A stretch of DNA of 53,389 nt, taken from an uncultured Candidatus Altimarinota bacterium. GTDB taxonomy: Bacteria > Patescibacteriota > Gracilibacteria > CAIRYL01. This document shows positions 22,555 through 48,746 of the stretch, piece after piece. The notes under the pieces were generated by a model. The model was not told the origin of the DNA and did not search any database. It was given only the letters and a program-made list of their open reading frames with translations. Numbering within the stretch: position 1 is the first letter of the stretch; the number at the start of each line of letters is the position of its first letter. Made by a program: the position numbers and the translations under genes. The stretch spans positions 1 to 53,389 of the forward strand of contig CAMZKJ010000024.1 of assembly GCA_947311245.1 (NCBI GenBank), in the 5' to 3' direction.

Positions 22555-25455
22555 ATGAGTGAAAATATTGTAATAAAAGGGGCGAGAACCCATAATTTAA
22601 AAAATATAGATTTAGAAATTCCTAAAAATTCTTTAGTGGTAATTACTGGAGTTTCAGGAAGTGGAAAATCTTCTTTAGCATTTGATACTATTTTTGCAGA
22701 AGGGCAACGAAGATATGTAGAAAGTTTGTCGGCGTATGCACGGCAATTTTTAGGAAGTATGGATAAACCAGATATTGATGAAATTAAAGGGCTTTCTCCA
22801 GCTATTTCTATTGAACAAAAAACAGCTACTCGATCGCCACGGTCTACAGTGGGAACAACAACAGAAATTTATGATTATTTTAGACTTCTTTTTGCAAAAG
22901 TAGGTATTCCTCATTGTCCAGAATGTAATGAAAAAGTACAGAAAACAACGCCATCAAATATTGTTACACAAATTGGAAAACTTCCATTAAAAACAAAAAT
23001 AATGATTATGGCACCTGTTGTGCGTGGGAAAAAGGGGAGCCATATAAAAGTTTTTGAAAATATTAAAAGAGATGGGTTTTTACGATATAGAGTTAATGGA
23101 GAAATTTATACAATGGCACAAGATTTCCCAGAATTAGATCCTAATAAAAAACATACAATTGAAATTGTTATTGATCGTATTGTTGTAAAAGATTTTGGAC
23201 AGCATTATAAAGAACTTTCAAATGGATCAAAAATTGAAATTCCTAATCCGGATCGAGCACGAGTTGCCGATTCTGTAGAATTATCTCTAAAACGAGCCGA
23301 GGGGTTAGTATCTATTGCTAATTTAGATGATGGAACGACTACAACATATTCTGAAAATTTTGCGTGTTCAACACATGGGGCAGTAATTCCAGAAATTGAG
23401 CCGAGAAGTTTTTCTTTTAATTCTCCATATGGAGCATGTAACTCATGTCATGGGTTAGGAAGACGACAAGAAGTTTTACCAAAATTACTTATAAAAGAAA
23501 GTTTAAGCTTGGAACAAGGTGCAATTATCCCATGGAATGCAGGAAATACACTTTCTTGGTATTTAAAATTATTGGAACAAGTAGGAAAAGAATATGGTTT
23601 TGATATAAAAACTCCTGTTAAAAATTTTACTCAAGAGCAAAAAGATATTTTAATTTATGGGGCTGGAAATAATGAATTTGAGGTGAAAATGGCTGGTGCA
23701 AAATCTGGTGAAGCTGAAAGTTATGTAAAATATGAAGGAGTTATTTCAAATTTAGAACGACGATATTTGGAAACAGATAGTGACCATGTACGAAAAGCAC
23801 TTGAAAAATTTATGGAAGAACAACAATGTTCTACATGTAATGGAGGGCGATTGAAAAAAGAATTTTTAGGTGTTACAATTCTTGGAAAGAATATTTTAGA
23901 CACAACTAAATTTTCTATAAAAGAAGCCGCCGATTTCTTTTCTGATTTAAAATCAGAATTAAATACTTCAGATTTGACTATTGCAACACCAATTATAGAT
24001 GAAATTTCTGAACGGTTAAAATTTTTGTTAAAAGTAGGTCTTGCATATTTAACATTAGACAGAAGTTCTGCAACGCTTTCTGGAGGAGAAGCACAACGAA
24101 TTCGTTTAGCAACGCAAATTGGGTCAAAGCTTGAAGGAGTGTTATATGTATTAGATGAGCCTTCAATTGGATTACACCAGAGAGATAACGAAAAATTGAT
24201 AGAAACAATGCGAGAATTGCAAGAATTGGGAAACACAGTTCTTGTTGTAGAGCATGATGAAGACACAATGAAAGCAGCAGATTATTTAATTGAAATTGGT
24301 CCAAAGGCTGGAAAGGCTGGAGGTGAAGTTATAAATATAGGAACTCCTAAAGAATTTTTTGCAAATAAAAATTCTTCAACTGCTGCGTATTTATCGGGGA
24401 GAAAAAAAATAGAACTTCCAAAAACAAGAAGAGCTGCAAAAATAGATGAAAAAACAAAGAAAAAACAATTTGTATCAATTCAAAATGCCACTTTTAATAA
24501 TTTAAAAGATGTATCTGTAGATATTCCGTTAGGGTGTTTTGTTGGAGTTTCAGGAGTTTCGGGGTCTGGTAAATCGTCTTTAATTAACGGAATTCTTTCT
24601 CCTAAATTATTGAATGATTTAAATAAAGCAAAACAAGTAGTAGGAGCACATAAAAAAATAACAGGAATTGAATATTTAGATAAAGCAATTGTTATTGATC
24701 AAAGTGCAATTGGAAAGTCTCCACGGTCGAATCCTGCAACATATGTAAAAGTATTTGATGATATTCGAACAGTTTTTTCTGAAGCAACAGAATCAAAAAT
24801 TCGTGGATATAAAATTGGTCGGTTTTCGTTTAATGTAAAAGGAGGACGATGTGAAGAGTGTCAAGGTGATGGAATTAAAAAAATTGAAATGCATTTTCTT
24901 CCCGATGTATATGTGCAATGTGAAATATGTGCGGGAAAACGATATAATACAGAAACATTAGAGGTAACATGGCGAGGAAAAAATATTGCTGATGTATTAG
25001 AAATGACTATTTCAGAAGCTTCACAATTTTTTGAAAAAGTTCCTGCTATTCATCGAAAATTAAAAACATTAGAAAGTGTCGGTTTAGGATATTTGCAATT
25101 AGGACAAAGTGCCACAACTCTTTCTGGAGGAGAAGCACAAAGAATAAAACTTTCTACAGAGCTTTCAAAACGATCTACAGGAAAAACATTTTATATTTTA
25201 GACGAACCAACAACAGGGTTACATTTTGAAGATATTCAAAAATTATTAGATGTTTTAGAACGATTAGTAGAATCGGGAAATACGGTGTTAGTTATTGAAC
25301 ATAGTTTAGATGTATTGAAATGTTGCGATTATCTTATAGATATTGGGCCTGAAGGTGGTTCTGGTGGAGGAGAAGTGGTTGCAGAAGGAACACCTGAAGA
25401 AGTTGCGCAATCAAAAAAATCACATACTGCTAAATTTTTAAAAGAATTATTATAA
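22555..25455 (+). CDS. uvrA: UvrABC excinuclease subunit A
   Basis: UvrA is the damage-sensing ABC ATPase of nucleotide excision repair and loads UvrB. The 966-residue length is slightly above E. coli's 940. Two cassettes are complete: Walker A GVSGSGKSS (32-40) and GVSGSGKSS again at about 680, signatures LSGGEAQRIRLATQ and LSGGEAQRIKLSTE, and Walker B VLDEPSIGL and ILDEPTTGL. The first zinc module differs from E. coli: where CPIC is expected it reads CSTH, before ACNSCHGLG, so one ligand may be His. The C-terminal zinc module (GRCEECQGDG...VQCEICAGKRY) is intact. Conserved Arg residues use CGA and CGG. ssrA follows 100 bp downstream. Confidence 0.97.
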   Translation: MSENIVIKGARTHNLKNIDLEIPKNSLVVITGVSGSGKSSLAFDTIFAEGQRRYVESLSAYARQFLGSMDKPDIDEIKGLSPAISIEQKTATRSPRSTVGTTTEIYDYFRLLFAKVGIPHCPECNEKVQKTTPSNIVTQIGKLPLKTKIMIMAPVVRGKKGSHIKVFENIKRDGFLRYRVNGEIYTMAQDFPELDPNKKHTIEIVIDRIVVKDFGQHYKELSNGSKIEIPNPDRARVADSVELSLKRAEGLVSIANLDDGTTTTYSENFACSTHGAVIPEIEPRSFSFNSPYGACNSCHGLGRRQEVLPKLLIKESLSLEQGAIIPWNAGNTLSWYLKLLEQVGKEYGFDIKTPVKNFTQEQKDILIYGAGNNEFEVKMAGAKSGEAESYVKYEGVISNLERRYLETDSDHVRKALEKFMEEQQCSTCNGGRLKKEFLGVTILGKNILDTTKFSIKEAADFFSDLKSELNTSDLTIATPIIDEISERLKFLLKVGLAYLTLDRSSATLSGGEAQRIRLATQIGSKLEGVLYVLDEPSIGLHQRDNEKLIETMRELQELGNTVLVVEHDEDTMKAADYLIEIGPKAGKAGGEVINIGTPKEFFANKNSSTAAYLSGRKKIELPKTRRAAKIDEKTKKKQFVSIQNATFNNLKDVSVDIPLGCFVGVSGVSGSGKSSLINGILSPKLLNDLNKAKQVVGAHKKITGIEYLDKAIVIDQSAIGKSPRSNPATYVKVFDDIRTVFSEATESKIRGYKIGRFSFNVKGGRCEECQGDGIKKIEMHFLPDVYVQCEICAGKRYNTETLEVTWRGKNIADVLEMTISEASQFFEKVPAIHRKLKTLESVGLGYLQLGQSATTLSGGEAQRIKLSTELSKRSTGKTFYILDEPTTGLHFEDIQKLLDVLERLVESGNTVLVIEHSLDVLKCCDYLIDIGPEGGSGGGEVVAEGTPEEVAQSKKSHTAKFLKELL

Positions 25456-41677: not shown

Positions 41678-42970
41678 CTATATATTTTCAGAAATAATTT
41701 TTGCCTGCAGGGCACAGAGTGAAATATGATACCCACCACATAAACCGTCAATATCTAAAATTTCTCCAGCTATAAAAAGGTTGGAGATTTTTTTTGATTC
41801 AAGCGTTGAAACATTGATGTCAGAAAGAGAGACTCCTCCTTTTGTTGTCCAACAGGCTTGATACGGAAATAATTCAGGCTTTGGTAATGAAAAGCCACAA
41901 AAAGCAGACACGAGATTTCTAAGCTCTTGCTTTGTTATATCTGCAAAAAATAAATTTTTAATTTTTGTTTTTTCAATTAAAAATTTTGCTAATTTTTTTG
42001 AAACAAATTGTGTAAAAAAAGAAAGAATATTATTTTTCCCATTTCGTAAATTTTGCAATTTTTTTGTAAGTGTTTTTTCTGTATATTCTGGAATAAAATT
42101 TAAAAATACATCAGATTTTTTATCCCATAATGCTGAAAAATCTAAAATAGCAGGACCCGATAACCCGACATGCGTAATAAGAATATCATCTATAACTTCT
42201 GTATTTTTTTTTATATTCACATTTTTTGCATATATTTTTCCTGTAAAACTTTGCCCTGCAACTTCTGCAAAATGTAAAGTTGCTATTTCTTCTTTTGAAA
42301 ATCGAAAAGGTGAAAGTGATGGCGAAGTTTTTTGAATAGTATGCCCAAATTGTTCGAGTAAGCTATATGTTTTTTGTTTATTTAATTGAGAATTAAGAGG
42401 CTTTTTATCTTCCATTTGCAACATTCCTCCAGTTGTAATAATAAGATTATCAAATATTTTATTATTATTTTCTAAAATAAATTTATTATTTTCAGTTGTT
42501 GTAATACTATTGATTTCTGTATTTACATGAATAAAAATATTTTTTATTTTTTCAAGTCTCGCTTGTAATGCTTCAACATCAGATTTTGCATTTTCCGATT
42601 TCAACATAGCTCTATTTTTTTCCCAAAAATATTTTATTTCAAGTTCATCAAAAAGATGAATTACAGAAAACTGTTGAATAGAATCTATAATTTCTGATTT
42701 TTTAAAAAATTTAGATTTAAAAAAATGTTCTTTTTTTCTGTTATTACTCGAGAAAAAGGTGTTTGGATTTAAAATTTTATTCGAAATATTCATTCGTCCT
42801 CCACCGGTTAATTTTAATTTTTTTCCTAATTTTTTATTTTTTTCAAAAATATGAATTTCTATTTTTCCAGCCTGTAATTCTGCTTTATATTTTTTTGCAA
42901 GAAAAAGTGCTGTAAAAATTCCAGCAGGCCCTGCGCCAATAATACCAATTATTTTAGAGATATTTTCCAT
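41678..42970 (-). CDS. HI0933/YhiN family flavoprotein
   Basis: I take ATG 42970 (MENISKIIGIIGAGPAG, 430 residues), which overlaps the upstream gene by 17 bp; another ATG at 42994 would add eight residues. The N-terminal FAD-binding Rossmann motif GIIGAGPAGIFTALFLAKK is followed by the family signature KKLGKKLKLTGGGRMNISN. Later come ITTGGM, THVGLSGPAILD and TTKGGVSLSDINVSTLESK, with the terminal FIAGEILDIDGLCGGYHISLCALQA. Members are putative NAD(P)/FAD-dependent oxidoreductases whose reaction is unknown. Last gene of the operon ruvX - M29-like - HI0933. It ends in TAG. Confidence 0.93.
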   Translation of the reverse strand: MENISKIIGIIGAGPAGIFTALFLAKKYKAELQAGKIEIHIFEKNKKLGKKLKLTGGGRMNISNKILNPNTFFSSNNRKKEHFFKSKFFKKSEIIDSIQQFSVIHLFDELEIKYFWEKNRAMLKSENAKSDVEALQARLEKIKNIFIHVNTEINSITTTENNKFILENNNKIFDNLIITTGGMLQMEDKKPLNSQLNKQKTYSLLEQFGHTIQKTSPSLSPFRFSKEEIATLHFAEVAGQSFTGKIYAKNVNIKKNTEVIDDILITHVGLSGPAILDFSALWDKKSDVFLNFIPEYTEKTLTKKLQNLRNGKNNILSFFTQFVSKKLAKFLIEKTKIKNLFFADITKQELRNLVSAFCGFSLPKPELFPYQACWTTKGGVSLSDINVSTLESKKISNLFIAGEILDIDGLCGGYHISLCALQAKIISENI

Positions 42971-44054
42971 TTTCAAAAAATACAACTTCTTCAATTATTT
43001 CTCCTGTTGTTTTATCTTTATTACAAGCTGATATTTTAAAGGCTGTTGAAAAAATATCCATGTGATATCGTTGTACAACTTCTTTTCCAAATTTAGCTCT
43101 ATAAATAGCATGTTTTTTTCCAAGTGAAATATGGAACCCTGCTTGTCGCTCAAAAACAGAAACAAAACTTAAAGGGTTTTCCATTGAAATAAAAGGATTT
43201 AATCCAAATCCTGCTTCTCTAATCATTACTTCTGGATTTCCTTCTGCATCTGTTTCCGATTCTAAAATTCGTGTAATAAGATTATCAATAAATTCTTGCG
43301 GTGCGTTATCGTCCCATTTCGTTAATACTCCATTTTCAATTGTTACTGAAAATGGTTCACATTGGACAATCTTAAATTCTGAATTTGGATAACAGCAAAT
43401 GTTTAATTTCCCATTCACACTATATAAATCTTTGCTTTCTGAAAAAATTTCCCCACAGATAGAACTTCCTCCTCGGTTTTTTTGTTGATAAAATCTTCCA
43501 TCATTTATTTTTGCTTCTTCCATTTCTGGAAAGATAAGAATATCAGGAGTTGTTTTATCTCCAGAATAAATTTTTATTTCATCGTAATTATCCATTAATT
43601 TTTTAATTTTCTCACCTAATTCAGCATATTCTTCTGCTTTATATGTTAATGCATTTAGCCATGTGTTTTCTTGGTCTGGTCCATAATAGCTCAGGTGAGA
43701 ATGCTCCATGCATCCCATATTTTTGTTATATAAATGAAGTCTAATTCTAAATTTATCCATTCTAAAACTTGTAGATTGAATTAATATTACAGAAGACTGT
43801 TCTGGTAAATTTGAAAGCATTTCTACTAACTCTGCATTATCTTCGGGTTTATATTCACGAATAATTGTTGTCTCTGGGTTTCTCTTCGCTAAAACATCTT
43901 TATGTGCTTGTGTCATGATTTTTGACAATGGTGAATCTAAATCATATAGCACTACTAAATGTTCATCTTTTACCCCAAATTGTTTAAAAATAGAATCTGA
44001 AACAATTTGGTTAATTTCATCTTTTGTAAGTTTTTTTTGAGAAATATTTGTCAT
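42954..44054 (-). CDS. M29 (aminopeptidase T)-like protein
   Basis: The 366-residue protein has no signal peptide. Its second half resembles the M29 metallopeptidase/NicX fold: SICGEIFSESKDLYSVNGKLNIC with a Glu in the position of the first metal ligand, GFGLNPFISM, and ERQAGFHISLGKKHAIY. Expected ligands (Glu, Glu, His, His, Asp) are only partly evident, and GHS-type motifs in the family are here GFHISLG and RYHMDIF. The N-terminal half (about 1-180) is an alpha/beta region with VLYDLDSPLSKIM. It lies between ruvX (19 bp) and the flavoprotein (overlapping). Peptidase activity is an inference. Confidence 0.6.
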   Translation of the reverse strand: MTNISQKKLTKDEINQIVSDSIFKQFGVKDEHLVVLYDLDSPLSKIMTQAHKDVLAKRNPETTIIREYKPEDNAELVEMLSNLPEQSSVILIQSTSFRMDKFRIRLHLYNKNMGCMEHSHLSYYGPDQENTWLNALTYKAEEYAELGEKIKKLMDNYDEIKIYSGDKTTPDILIFPEMEEAKINDGRFYQQKNRGGSSICGEIFSESKDLYSVNGKLNICCYPNSEFKIVQCEPFSVTIENGVLTKWDDNAPQEFIDNLITRILESETDAEGNPEVMIREAGFGLNPFISMENPLSFVSVFERQAGFHISLGKKHAIYRAKFGKEVVQRYHMDIFSTAFKISACNKDKTTGEIIEEVVFFENGKYL

Positions 44055-44073
44055 GAAATATATGAATAAATTT

Positions 44074-44550
44074 TTAAAGGGGATTAACTTTTTGGATATC
44101 TGAATAAAATGTTACAGAATCGAACCAATTTTGAAGAATTATAGCAGCCGCTACAGAATCTTTCGAGCTCTTTTGTTTTTTCATTTTCACTCCCATCTCT
44201 GAAAGTGATGCTTCTGCGATTTGTGTCGTAAATCGTTCATCGAAAACAAAAACAGGTAAACCAAGTGTTGATTTTATATTTTCTTTTTCATGTAAAGTTT
44301 TTTCTCTATGATCATTTTTATACTTTTTTTTCCCAGAATCTGTTGTATACGTTGAATCTTCTAAATTTTCTGAACTTTTAGGGTCTCCAATCACAATTGC
44401 TTTTACATTTTCTTCTGTAATTATTTTTTGTAATTTGAGTAAATAGTCTTCAAATTTTAACTGTTCTCTTGGAAATGCTAATTTAATATCACTTTCTCCA
44501 ATTGCTACTCCTACACGAGCAAATCCAATATCTAGCGCTATTATTTTCAT
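44074..44550 (-). CDS. ruvX: RuvX/YqgF-type putative pre-16S rRNA nuclease
   Basis: I take ATG 44550 (MKIIALDIGFARVGVAIGES, 158 residues), because the RNase H-like domain begins exactly there; ten residues from an upstream ATG are dispensable. Conserved features are LDIGFARVGVAI with the first catalytic Asp, AIVIGDPKSSE, VFVFDERFTTQIAEASL and KDSVAAAIILQNWFD with the terminal Asp. A Lys-rich insertion lies between IGDPK and the DERFTT strand. The family processes the 5' end of 16S rRNA and has been linked to Holliday junctions. First gene of its operon, divergent from uvrC. Confidence 0.92.
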   Translation of the reverse strand: MKIIALDIGFARVGVAIGESDIKLAFPREQLKFEDYLLKLQKIITEENVKAIVIGDPKSSENLEDSTYTTDSGKKKYKNDHREKTLHEKENIKSTLGLPVFVFDERFTTQIAEASLSEMGVKMKKQKSSKDSVAAAIILQNWFDSVTFYSDIQKVNPL

Positions 44551-44777
44551 AAAATCTATAAACAGTATTTGTATTTTCAAATTTTAGTGTATCAATTTAT
44601 AACTCTTATGTGAAAAGATTTATAATTTTTTTGTTAAATAAAGAATTTAATTTAATTTTATAGATTTATGAGAAATTGATATACTTACAATATGAAGTAC
44701 TTATATTATAAGTTTATTTTTATAGTTTTCTGTATAGTCTTCTGAATCTCTCGATAATTTTCTCTCAACTAATTTGT

Positions 44778-47171
44778 ATGCCTGATATTTCTGAAATTTT
44801 AGAAAAACTCCCCAAATGTTCTGGGGTTTATGAAATGAGAGATGAAAACAATGAAATTTTATATATAGGAAAAGCAAAAAATTTGTCTTCACGAGTACGA
44901 AGTTATTTTCGAGAATCGGCTAATCATTCAATTCGAATTCAAAAACTTGTTGAAAAAATTAAAAATATTGAATGGACAACAACACGAAATGAGGCAGAAG
45001 CATTAATCCTAGAAGATAATTTAATTAAAAAAAAACGACCTCGTTTTAATATTTTATTACGAGACGATAAAACATATTCGTATATTAAAATTACAAATGA
45101 AGATTTTCCACGAATTATATTGGTGCGAAAAGTTTTGAAAGATGGGGCAAAATATTTTGGTCCAAAAACATCGGGTTCAGCTGTGCGAAAAATTATAGAT
45201 ATGCTTAACGATGTTTTTTTATTTAAAACTTCAACTATTGGAATTACAGAAGATTCTACAACGGGAGAAATTTTATTAGACAATGGAAACCAAAAAATTC
45301 CATGTTTAAATTATCATTTAAAAAAATGTCACGCTCCATGTATAGGGAAAATTTCTAAGGCTGATTATGCAGAAATTATAAAAAAAGCAGTGAGTTTTTT
45401 GCGTGGTGAAACGAAAGAAATTACAGCATTTCTTACAGAAAAAATGATGAATTATGCCCAAAATTCAAAATTTACATTGGCTGCAAAAACCCGAGATATT
45501 ATTAAATCTATAGAAAATATTTCAGAAAAACAAATAATATCTGCACCAAATGAACTTTCTGCAGATATTATTGGATTATTTACAAATTATGGGCATGTAT
45601 TTTTTCATGTATTTTCGGCTCGAAATGGGAAAATAATAAATTCTGAAACCTTCCCCGTAATGATTAAAAATGAAAGTTCTCTTTCTCCTGTTTCATTTTC
45701 GGTACAACAAGAGGCCTTAAATGCATTTTTAGCATCGCATGCAAGCCGTGTTTCAGATTTTCCAAAAACTATTATTCTTGATAAAAAATTTATAGACGAA
45801 GATGAAAAAATTGTATGGGAAAAATATTTTACAGAAGAATTACAGGTTTTAAATGGGGGAAGTGTAGAAATTTCTTTACCAGAGAAAGCGAGAAGAAAAG
45901 AGTTATTAGATCTCGCACATCAAAACGCAGAAGATTACGCAAAGCGTCATGCTATGAGTTTTATTAAAAAAGATGAAAACTATGAAGATACGCTTGAAAC
46001 ATTGCAAAAAAAACTACACATGAACAGTTTTCCAAAACGAATGGAGTGTTATGATATTTCGCATTATTCAGGAGAGAAAACAGTTGCATCAATGGTAGTT
46101 TTTGAAAATGGAAAAGAAAAAAAATCGGATTATAGGTCTTTTAATATTAAATCTATAGATACAGAAACGGGGATTGATGATTTTAAATCGTTAGCAGAAG
46201 CACTGTATCGTCGACTTTCTCGTTTACCAGAAAAATTTCCAGAAAATTGGTCTACAGAAAAGCTAAAACGAAAACAAGATATTCAAGATATGCAAGAAAT
46301 TCCATGTCTAGGAGGAGTTGCAAAAGTGCATATTACTAAAAATACAATAAAAAAATTAAGTACCGCAGATATATATGGGTTATTTAATAGTCAAAAACCA
46401 AAAAAAATATATAGTAATATTTTGGCGTTAGTTGAAATAAATAGTATGAAGCATGCAAGAATAAATCTATCAGAAACATATATTGTAAAAAACATGAGTG
46501 CGGTAAGCATTGGAGATCTTCAAATATATCAAAAACAAATGCGAAAATTTTTATTAGATATATTTGTAAAAACAAAATGTGATGTTTATAAAATTTTTAA
46601 TTATGCAAAAAAAACTCAAGAATATTTAGAGCATCTTGGTTTTGAAGAAAAAACAACAGAAGAAGGGGAGTTATATATGCTTAAAACAGGAAAATTATCT
46701 ATGAGCTTGTCGGACTCGTTTCTAAAAATTCCAGATCTTATTATAATAGATGGTGGAAAAGGACAGCTTTCTTCTACTTGGAATATTTTAAAAAATACAG
46801 AATATGCCGATAAAATTCAAATTTGTTCGTTAGCCAAAAGAGAAGAGGAAGTTTTTGCGATACGTTATAATCCTGAAACTAAAATGGGTGAAATGTATAA
46901 AACTGAAATTCAAAAAAATTCAAATGAAGGGCACATGTTACAACGGATTCGAAACGAAGCGCATAGATTTGCTATTACAAAAAATAGAGCAGGGAGAGAA
47001 AAAATAATACAGAAATCTGTACTAGATGAAATTCAAGGGATAGGTGGAAAAACAAAAAAAATTCTAAAGCAGAAATTTGGTGGAATTGTTGGTATTCGTG
47101 AAGCTACAGATGGAGAACTTCTTGAAATTGTGAGTGCAAAAGTTTTAAAAAGAATTAGAGAAAGTGTGTAA
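44778..47171 (+). CDS. uvrC: UvrABC excinuclease subunit C with a large insertion in the nuclease domain
   Basis: UvrC makes both incisions in nucleotide excision repair. The 797-residue length compares with ~600 usual. The order is a GIY-YIG domain (SGVYEM...ILYIGKAKNLSSRV), the Cys region PCLNYHLKKCHAPC, a UvrB-binding UVR segment (KFTLAAKTRDIIKSIENI), then the RNase H-like endonuclease with ECYDISH (D426), IIIDGGKGQLS (D658) and RNEAHRFAI (H729), and HhH repeats EIQGIGGKTKKILKQKFGG. About 165 extra residues (~484-650, bases ~46227-46727) interrupt the nuclease domain between ALYRRLSRL and PDLIIID. Of the four E. coli FeS-cluster cysteines, the first seems absent. Confidence 0.95.
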   Translation: MPDISEILEKLPKCSGVYEMRDENNEILYIGKAKNLSSRVRSYFRESANHSIRIQKLVEKIKNIEWTTTRNEAEALILEDNLIKKKRPRFNILLRDDKTYSYIKITNEDFPRIILVRKVLKDGAKYFGPKTSGSAVRKIIDMLNDVFLFKTSTIGITEDSTTGEILLDNGNQKIPCLNYHLKKCHAPCIGKISKADYAEIIKKAVSFLRGETKEITAFLTEKMMNYAQNSKFTLAAKTRDIIKSIENISEKQIISAPNELSADIIGLFTNYGHVFFHVFSARNGKIINSETFPVMIKNESSLSPVSFSVQQEALNAFLASHASRVSDFPKTIILDKKFIDEDEKIVWEKYFTEELQVLNGGSVEISLPEKARRKELLDLAHQNAEDYAKRHAMSFIKKDENYEDTLETLQKKLHMNSFPKRMECYDISHYSGEKTVASMVVFENGKEKKSDYRSFNIKSIDTETGIDDFKSLAEALYRRLSRLPEKFPENWSTEKLKRKQDIQDMQEIPCLGGVAKVHITKNTIKKLSTADIYGLFNSQKPKKIYSNILALVEINSMKHARINLSETYIVKNMSAVSIGDLQIYQKQMRKFLLDIFVKTKCDVYKIFNYAKKTQEYLEHLGFEEKTTEEGELYMLKTGKLSMSLSDSFLKIPDLIIIDGGKGQLSSTWNILKNTEYADKIQICSLAKREEEVFAIRYNPETKMGEMYKTEIQKNSNEGHMLQRIRNEAHRFAITKNRAGREKIIQKSVLDEIQGIGGKTKKILKQKFGGIVGIREATDGELLEIVSAKVLKRIRESV

Positions 47172-47256: not shown

Positions 47257-47847
47257 TTATTTATTACAAAAATATTCATAAATACTGTAGTCTTTGGTAA
47301 TTTCAGGATGAAAACTACATGCAATAAAATTATTTTCCTCCACTAGTACTGGAGTGTTTTTATATTCAGATATTATTTCTAGAGAACTGGCTCTGTTTGA
47401 TAGAGTTGAATGATTTACAATAATTTTGGGGGCACGAATAAATGCAGCTGAAATATTTTCAACTGCAGTATTTTTATAAAATTCAGAATTTTTATTTACA
47501 GTAATATCTGTAATAATTGAGTTTTGTTGTGCACCATAAGCATTGCGTTCAATTGAAATATTCATTCCTAAATGTGAACATAAAATAGCTCCGGCACAGG
47601 TTCCAAAAATTTTAAGATTTTTATTTTGAATTTTATCTTTTAAAATTTCCCACATTTTAAATTCTTTCAGCAGTTTGAGCATTGTAGTTGATTCACCACC
47701 TGGTAAAATAAGATGAGTTATTTTTTCTAACTCATCTTTATTCCGAATAAATATGCAAGAATATCCGAGAGCTTCACACATTTCTTTATGCTCCGCAAAT
47801 GATCCTTGAATTGCTAAAATTCCAATATTTATAATTTTATTATTCAT
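47257..47847 (-). CDS. pdxT: Pyridoxal 5'-phosphate synthase glutaminase subunit
   Basis: PdxT releases ammonia from glutamine and passes it to PdxS. I take ATG 47847 (MNNKIINIGILAIQGSF, 196 residues), as the conserved LAIQGSFxEH start lies there; an upstream ATG would overlap pdxS. It has LILPGGESTTM, the nucleophile Cys in FGTCAGAILC, ERNAYGAQQNS, FIRAPKI and the catalytic SFHPEI (His, Glu). It lies 14 bp after pdxS in an operon. Confidence 0.96.
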   Translation of the reverse strand: MNNKIINIGILAIQGSFAEHKEMCEALGYSCIFIRNKDELEKITHLILPGGESTTMLKLLKEFKMWEILKDKIQNKNLKIFGTCAGAILCSHLGMNISIERNAYGAQQNSIITDITVNKNSEFYKNTAVENISAAFIRAPKIIVNHSTLSNRASSLEIISEYKNTPVLVEENNFIACSFHPEITKDYSIYEYFCNK

Positions 47848-47861
47848 ATTTTTTTGTTCTA

Positions 47862-48746
47862 TTAGTTTGTGTTTCGGTCTGCATATTTCACAGCACAATC
47901 TTTTATTTCAAGGCTTTTCATTGCTCCTCCTAAATTTCGTGATACTTCTTTTAAAATATCCGGTTTGTCAAAATTAAGAGTTGCTTGAACAATTGCTTTT
48001 GCGACTAATTCAGGATTTTCTGCATCAAAAATTCCTGATCCTACGAATACTCCTTCTGCACCAAGTTGCATCATCATTGCTGCATCTGCTGGAGTTGCAA
48101 TTCCACCTGCTACAAATGTAACAACTGGAAGTCTTTGGTCGTTCATAACCATTTCTACTAAGTCTGCAGATACTCGATATTCTCGTGCTTTTTCTTCAAT
48201 ATTAGAAGGGTTTAAGTTGTCAATTTCTCTTCTAATTTGTCGCCAATGTCGTGTTGCTTCTACAATATTTCCTGTTCCTGCTTCTCCTTTGGTTCTAATC
48301 ATTGCTGCTCCTTCTTGAATTCGTCGCAGTGCTTCTCCTAAATTTTTTGCTCCACACACAAATGGGAGTTTAAATTCATTTTTTTCTACATGTCGTTCTT
48401 CATCTGCAGGAGTTAAAACTTCACTTTCATCTATAAAATCGATATCACAACTTTGTAAAATTTGAGCTTCTACAAAATGTCCAACTCGAACTTTTGCCAT
48501 AACTGGAATAGTCGTATTTTTTTTAATTTCTTCAATCATTGAAGGATCTGACATTCGTGCAACACCTCCATCTTTTCGAATTTGAGAAGGGATTTTTTCA
48601 AGTGCCATAACGGCTACGGCTCCAGCTTTTTCTGCAATACGCGCTTGTTCAACATTCATTACATCCATAATTACTCCTCCTTTCATCATTTTTGCAAGAC
48701 CAGATTTTAGCGTAAATGTATTTTGTTCTTCAGAAATATCAGACAT
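47862..48746 (-). CDS. pdxS: Pyridoxal 5'-phosphate synthase, synthase subunit
   Basis: PdxS builds PLP from ribose 5-phosphate, glyceraldehyde 3-phosphate and ammonia in the DXP-independent pathway, as a 12-mer decorated with PdxT. The 294-residue TIM barrel has [20 protein letters not shown] (with the Asp), [15 protein letters not shown] (the ribose-5-phosphate lysine), [41 protein letters not shown] (second catalytic Lys) and [27 protein letters not shown]. The product PLP serves the aminotransferase at 335-1879. It starts 96 bp after the glycosyltransferase gene, leaving room for a promoter. Confidence 0.98.

Follow-up and report, generated by a model that had tools for sequence, protein, structure and literature searches.

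The UvrC nuclease encoded in the window (the whole stretch of 53,389 nucleotides that we analyzed, from an uncultured Candidatus Altimarinota bacterium) is interrupted within its 5′ endonuclease domain by an additional domain, and inserts at the same site are a trait of the whole class to which this bacterium belongs rather than a singularity of one protein. In most of the relatives, the inserts are, judged by their sequences, unmistakable GNAT N-acetyltransferase domains, and the copy in the window most likely represents a strongly diverged variant of the same fold. The scenario that we favor, and consider quite probable, is that a GNAT domain was inserted into UvrC in an ancestor of the non-recoded part of the class, was inherited mainly vertically, and is probably active in most lineages, with the version in the genus of the window being a pseudo-GNAT. 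We take the class to be Gracilibacteria because the named matches come from Candidatus Peregrinibacteria and Peribacteria and because some of the families recode TGA.

The product of the interrupted gene scores 491 bits against TIGR00194 in the NCBIfam search, and PF08459, GIY-YIG, and UvrC_RNaseH all exceed their Pfam cut-offs (Table 1). The N-terminal nuclease domain matches PF01541 with 43.8 bits, over the cut-off, and PDB entry 1yd6 at 1e-22; the RNase H-like 5′ endonuclease domain matches PF08459 with 162 bits and contains the complete D, D, H set of residues, so that the original prediction of an intact D426, D658, and H729 holds at exactly these positions. The UVR motif for UvrB (PF02151, E 0.032) is below the cut-off. 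In a Foldseek search, the domain around the insert retrieved the UvrC structures 2nrt and 2nrr, with TM-scores, normalized by target, of 0.59-0.86. The window also carries uvrA, a partner gene in the same repair pathway, whereas uvrB is located on a different contig of the same genome. The genes adjoining uvrC encode the vitamin B6 synthase components PdxT (SNO) and PdxS (SOR/SNZ) (window 47257-48746, minus strand); the RuvX resolvase gene is found at window 44074-44580, adjoined by a gene for a 366-aa protein with no Pfam match at 1e-5 (window 42954-44054, minus strand).

Table 1. Features of the window, with nucleotide coordinates on the window and residue numbers in UvrC
Feature	Position in window	Strand	Residues in UvrC	Remark
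uvrA	22555..25455	+		966 aa; partner gene
uvrC	44778..47171	+		797 aa; ORF, Pfam/NCBIfam, PDB match
GIY-YIG			15-89	
UVR motif			216-247	weak
UvrC_RNaseH			262-391	
5′ endonuclease, RNase H-like domain			410-480 + 652-740	split by the insert
DISH motif	46053..46064	+		catalytic D426 of the 5′ endonuclease
Inserted domain	46218..46730	+	481-651	diverged GNAT fold (predicted), no acetyl-CoA loop; linkers on either side
EYLEHLGF	46620..46643	+	615-622	helix alpha4/strand beta6 of the predicted fold
DGGKG motif	46749..46763	+		catalytic D658
HRFA motif	46962..46973	+		catalytic H729
HhH region			C-terminus	

The presence of the insert in the window UvrC is confirmed. The C-terminal halves of UvrC structures in the PDB align with the protein up to aa 484 and again from aa 643-651, leaving the insert unmatched, which bears out the earlier claim that the domain is split after the ALYRRL helix and before the PDLIIIDGG strand; the extent first proposed, about 165 residues at 46227-46727, was right to within a few residues of the 171 aa (46218-46730) that separate the end of the helix (YRRL) from the strand (PDLIII). 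An assembly artefact is excluded by two further genomes of the same genus, in which the insert is present and is 81% and 52% identical at the amino-acid level. The insert is not low in complexity either: its entropy is 4.04 bits, and its least complex 20-mer has 2.76 bits vs 2.57 bits in the core, so that the disordered, low-complexity spacer envisaged beforehand as the outcome that would undo the prediction is not what the sequence contains.

UvrC is encoded in 58 of the 60 related genomes, and many of these proteins carry an insert at exactly the same point. We automatically split 110 UvrCs of the class, collected from the class survey and from reading the DNA, into core and insert, setting family f40 aside: 91 have a same-site insert of at least 100 aa and 19 do not. 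The inserts range from 107 to 316 aa, vs linkers of 7-37 aa in insert-free and outgroup UvrCs. The insert-free proteins of the class come from families f3 and f14, 9 of the 16 members of f7, and the TGA-recoded families f15, f129, and f130, the recoded families having been read less densely than the others. Linkers of the same 7-37 aa occupy the site in those UvrCs of Clostridia, Ignavibacteria, Chloroflexota, Actinomycetota, and other Patescibacteria that we read; judging by the matches listed, the insert is likely rare outside Patescibacteria. When 240 genomes were sampled across the phylum, the other GNAT-bearing UvrCs among the matches listed were two from f40, another class of Patescibacteria represented by three genomes. 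One apparent carrier from Bacillota (L076) was dropped, its linker being 14 aa long. In family f18 (L015, L016, and other members) and in three f8 proteins (L014, L017, and L030), UvrC is shortened C-terminally to 697-724 aa, apparently without the HhH region, and retains the insert.

Pfam GNAT families match 14 of 20 inserts (best E-value 2.4e-16, up to 60 bits), and a profile built from the inserts retrieves GNATs from the PDB (1.5e-9), as well as GNA1 (about 1e-7). Among 95 inserts aligned to a GNAT model, not each of them proven a GNAT by a profile match of its own, the acetyl-CoA loop and the tyrosine of helix alpha4 are both kept in 59, one of the two in 17, and neither in 19. The loop mostly takes the form RGxxLG, which is also found in GNA1-type GNATs, and the alpha4 tyrosine is usually the general acid in these enzymes. 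A different type of GNAT occupies the site in four proteins (L099, L116, L119, and L123), and the longest insert, the 316 aa of L109 (genome G361), apparently consists of two tandem GNAT-like domains, the first with a sub-threshold Pfam GNAT match and the second assigned by eye, with no Pfam support. Unrelated domains are found there as well: the 175-aa insert of L093 (G013) is a nucleotidyltransferase (PF10706, Aminoglyc_resit, 28.6 bits, above the cut-off), and L143 from the same genus has a linker of 12 aa; the 206-aa insert of L098 (G015) is an alpha/beta serine hydrolase (Ser_hydrolase, PF06821, 45.9 bits); and L114 contains a DUF559 nuclease domain inside UvrC (L114:1223-1667, 119.5 bits) that lies between the arms of an inverted repeat of 34 nt (85% complementary) and resembles an in-frame insertion of a mobile unit.

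The window copy itself is harder to recognize. On its own, it yields only sub-threshold chance matches in Pfam, NCBIfam, and the PDB sequences, and against a GNAT HMM built without its order it scores 4.7 bits, where shuffled sequences reach 8.9. The same GNAT profile gives 37 bits for L005, from the family of the window, and 97 bits for L006, from its order. A profile of the window genus matches the GNAT profile collinearly, albeit weakly (P = 4.8e-4), with a match probability of 32%, whereas none of 60 column-shuffled decoys exceeds 10.9%. An AlphaFold2 model has the GNAT order of elements (pLDDT 66, pTM 0.61), and the listed Foldseek matches to it are GNAT-fold proteins, although the alignment behind this model contained recognizable GNATs, so that it is not independent evidence. 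A second model, independent in that all rows outside the family of the window were insert-free, has the same element order, with insert pLDDT mostly 50-70 and in places below 50. The order predicted, with moderate confidence, is beta-alpha-beta-beta-beta-alpha-beta-alpha-beta-beta. Taken together, the close relatives L005 and L006, the collinear profile match, the predicted topology, and the second model point to GNAT ancestry. The faint resemblance to a GNAT C-terminus (YLEHLGFEE...YMLK) that had been suspected is supported; profile search and structure prediction, two of the checks proposed with it, gave no significant match for the insert alone in the former case and a GNAT topology in the latter.

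In the GNAT model columns, neither an R/Q-x-x-G-x-G/A nor an RGxxLG acetyl-CoA loop is present in the window insert; the R/Q-G-x-x-L-G loop is replaced in all three members of the genus, and the window EYLEHLGF has a leucine at the position of the alpha4 tyrosine of intact relatives. Accordingly, the initial observation that the acetyl-CoA loop is not evident is valid for the window copy but not for most of its relatives, which have the loop. In the loop-less lineages, the loop arginine drops from 97% to 11%, partly through the way this group was chosen, whereas conservation at GF and Y100, which are fold positions, remains at about 86-91%; because the acetyl-CoA residues vanish while the fold positions stay, conversion to a scaffold fits better than plain decay. 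Between L001 and L002, omega of the insert is 0.30 (95% CI 0.17-0.51), with 0.40 and 0.35 for the other pairs in the genus, vs about 0.1 for the UvrC core; the window insert is under purifying selection and, evolving 3-4 times faster, is less constrained than the nuclease. In the pair L013/L018, omega is 0.06 for the insert vs 0.05 for the core; in L015/L016, where dS is saturating, the corresponding values are 0.05 and 0.02. The contrast in selection between loop-intact and loop-lost lineages is only suggestive (p = 0.066), the pairs being non-independent and the distant ones near saturation.

The UvrC tree fits a single early gain of the GNAT domain followed by losses and swaps, albeit as a single-gene phylogeny with weakly supported deep nodes. 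The f40 GNATs (L048 and L049) are placed among those of the class in the domain tree, unlike their cores in the UvrC tree, a discordance that hints at a transfer. We propose that the GNAT domain entered, in frame, a short, variable surface loop preceding the beta strand that ends in D658, in the ancestor of the non-recoded part of the class, and that inheritance was mainly vertical thereafter. The RNase H core would fold around the inserted domain and the nuclease would stay intact; because, in the RNase H topology, the loop leads into the D658 strand from the far end of that strand, we expect the insert to face away from the nuclease site. In most lineages, the sequence features imply a domain able to bind acetyl-CoA and probably acetylating something near UvrC, candidate targets being UvrC itself, UvrB, or some other protein located at the lesion. 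In the window genus, where the loop and the tyrosine are lost and yet purifying selection persists, the insert would be a pseudo-GNAT that keeps its fold, most likely a non-catalytic scaffold serving as a structural or partner-binding module. As first suggested, the insert may alter how UvrC binds DNA or its partners.

The main rival to the scaffold role is that the domain is a tolerated passenger. In this reading, to which we give distinctly less credence, a surface hot spot would catch foreign domains in frame and let them decay, and the remnant in the window genus would be functionless and constrained only because its misfolding would harm UvrC. The unrelated domains acquired at this loop in single lineages (L093, L098, and L114), the tandem GNAT-like arrangement of L109, the lack of an insert in the close relatives f3, f14, and much of f7, and the excess of omega over the core in the window genus are all as expected of a decaying passenger. 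However, a GNAT-like domain is present in nearly every non-recoded family sampled, the L013/L018 and L015/L016 inserts are about as constrained as the core, and losing the loop while keeping the fold positions is not random decay.

The other readings concern the nature of the window insert. It might be unrelated to the GNATs of the relatives, namely, another domain or a partly disordered spacer that took their place, given that it has no significant sequence match when taken alone and that other domains do replace the GNAT at this site; we regard this as unlikely, considering that the collinear profile match exceeds all decoys, that the GNAT topology is predicted without outside GNAT rows, that GNATs are present in the same family and order, and that the D-x-SF-x-x-P exit linker is shared. 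Some GNATs tolerate motif changes and, with a GNAT fold predicted for it, the insert could conceivably still act as an acetyltransferase, using an acetyl-CoA site of an unusual kind, but replacement of the loop in the entire genus sample and the change of tyrosine to leucine make this very improbable. An in-frame insertion in a conserved gene also brings to mind an intein, an intron, or some other self-removing element, for which we see next to no prospect: there is no match to intein families or Rfam, the reading frame is continuous, the insert lies in a variable linker rather than in a conserved motif, and its exit, which reads KIP-DLIII, lacks the HN-Cys/Ser/Thr of inteins.

A bolder and rather improbable extension of the pseudo-GNAT scenario is that the UvrC linker is a platform tethering enzymes to nucleotide excision repair, comprising the GNAT, the enzymes swapped in for it, and, in the window genus, a non-catalytic adaptor. 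If so, acetyl-CoA-linked control would be built into a repair nuclease, and the GNAT of most lineages would modify repair or nearby proteins.

Few bacterial repair proteins are as conserved as UvrC, whose fixed architecture is well known. The class-wide occurrence of an acetyltransferase domain within its nuclease domain is unexpected and seemingly undescribed, and raises the question of whether excision repair in these reduced bacteria is coupled to acetyl-CoA or protein acetylation. This one site, occupied in some lineages by an intact GNAT, in others by a pseudo-GNAT or another enzyme, and elsewhere by an empty linker, provides a natural series in which to study, by comparison, the entry of folded domains into a conserved enzyme. 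Our search of the open-access literature turned up no description of a UvrC that contains an acetyltransferase domain, in agreement with the initial statement that no described UvrC with such a module was known; of the prospect that the insert would turn out to be both common and already described, the first part came true, class-wide, but no description was found. In PMC1564403 and PMC3985635, no word starting with ‘acetyl’ occurs in the main text.

The domain fusions of GIY-YIG/UvrC proteins reviewed in PMC1564403 resemble the present case in that nucleases of the UvrC lineage have extra domains, but we came across no counterpart there of the insert within the UvrC RNase H-like domain. Compared with ordinary UvrCs (TIGR00194; 2nrt, 2nrr, 3c65, and 8b0q), the window protein has the same domain order, catalytic residues, and RNase H fold, and UvrA and UvrB are encoded in the same genome, whereas the ordinary 7-37 aa linker is replaced by a domain of 171 aa with a predicted fold. 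With GNATs (PF00583/PF13508/PF13673; 3d8p, GNA1 4ag7, and RimI 5isv), the inserts share the order of fold elements (predicted in the case of the window copy) and, in most relatives, also the acetyl-CoA loop and the alpha4 tyrosine, both of which the window copy lacks; unlike those GNATs, all these domains are embedded within a nuclease domain.
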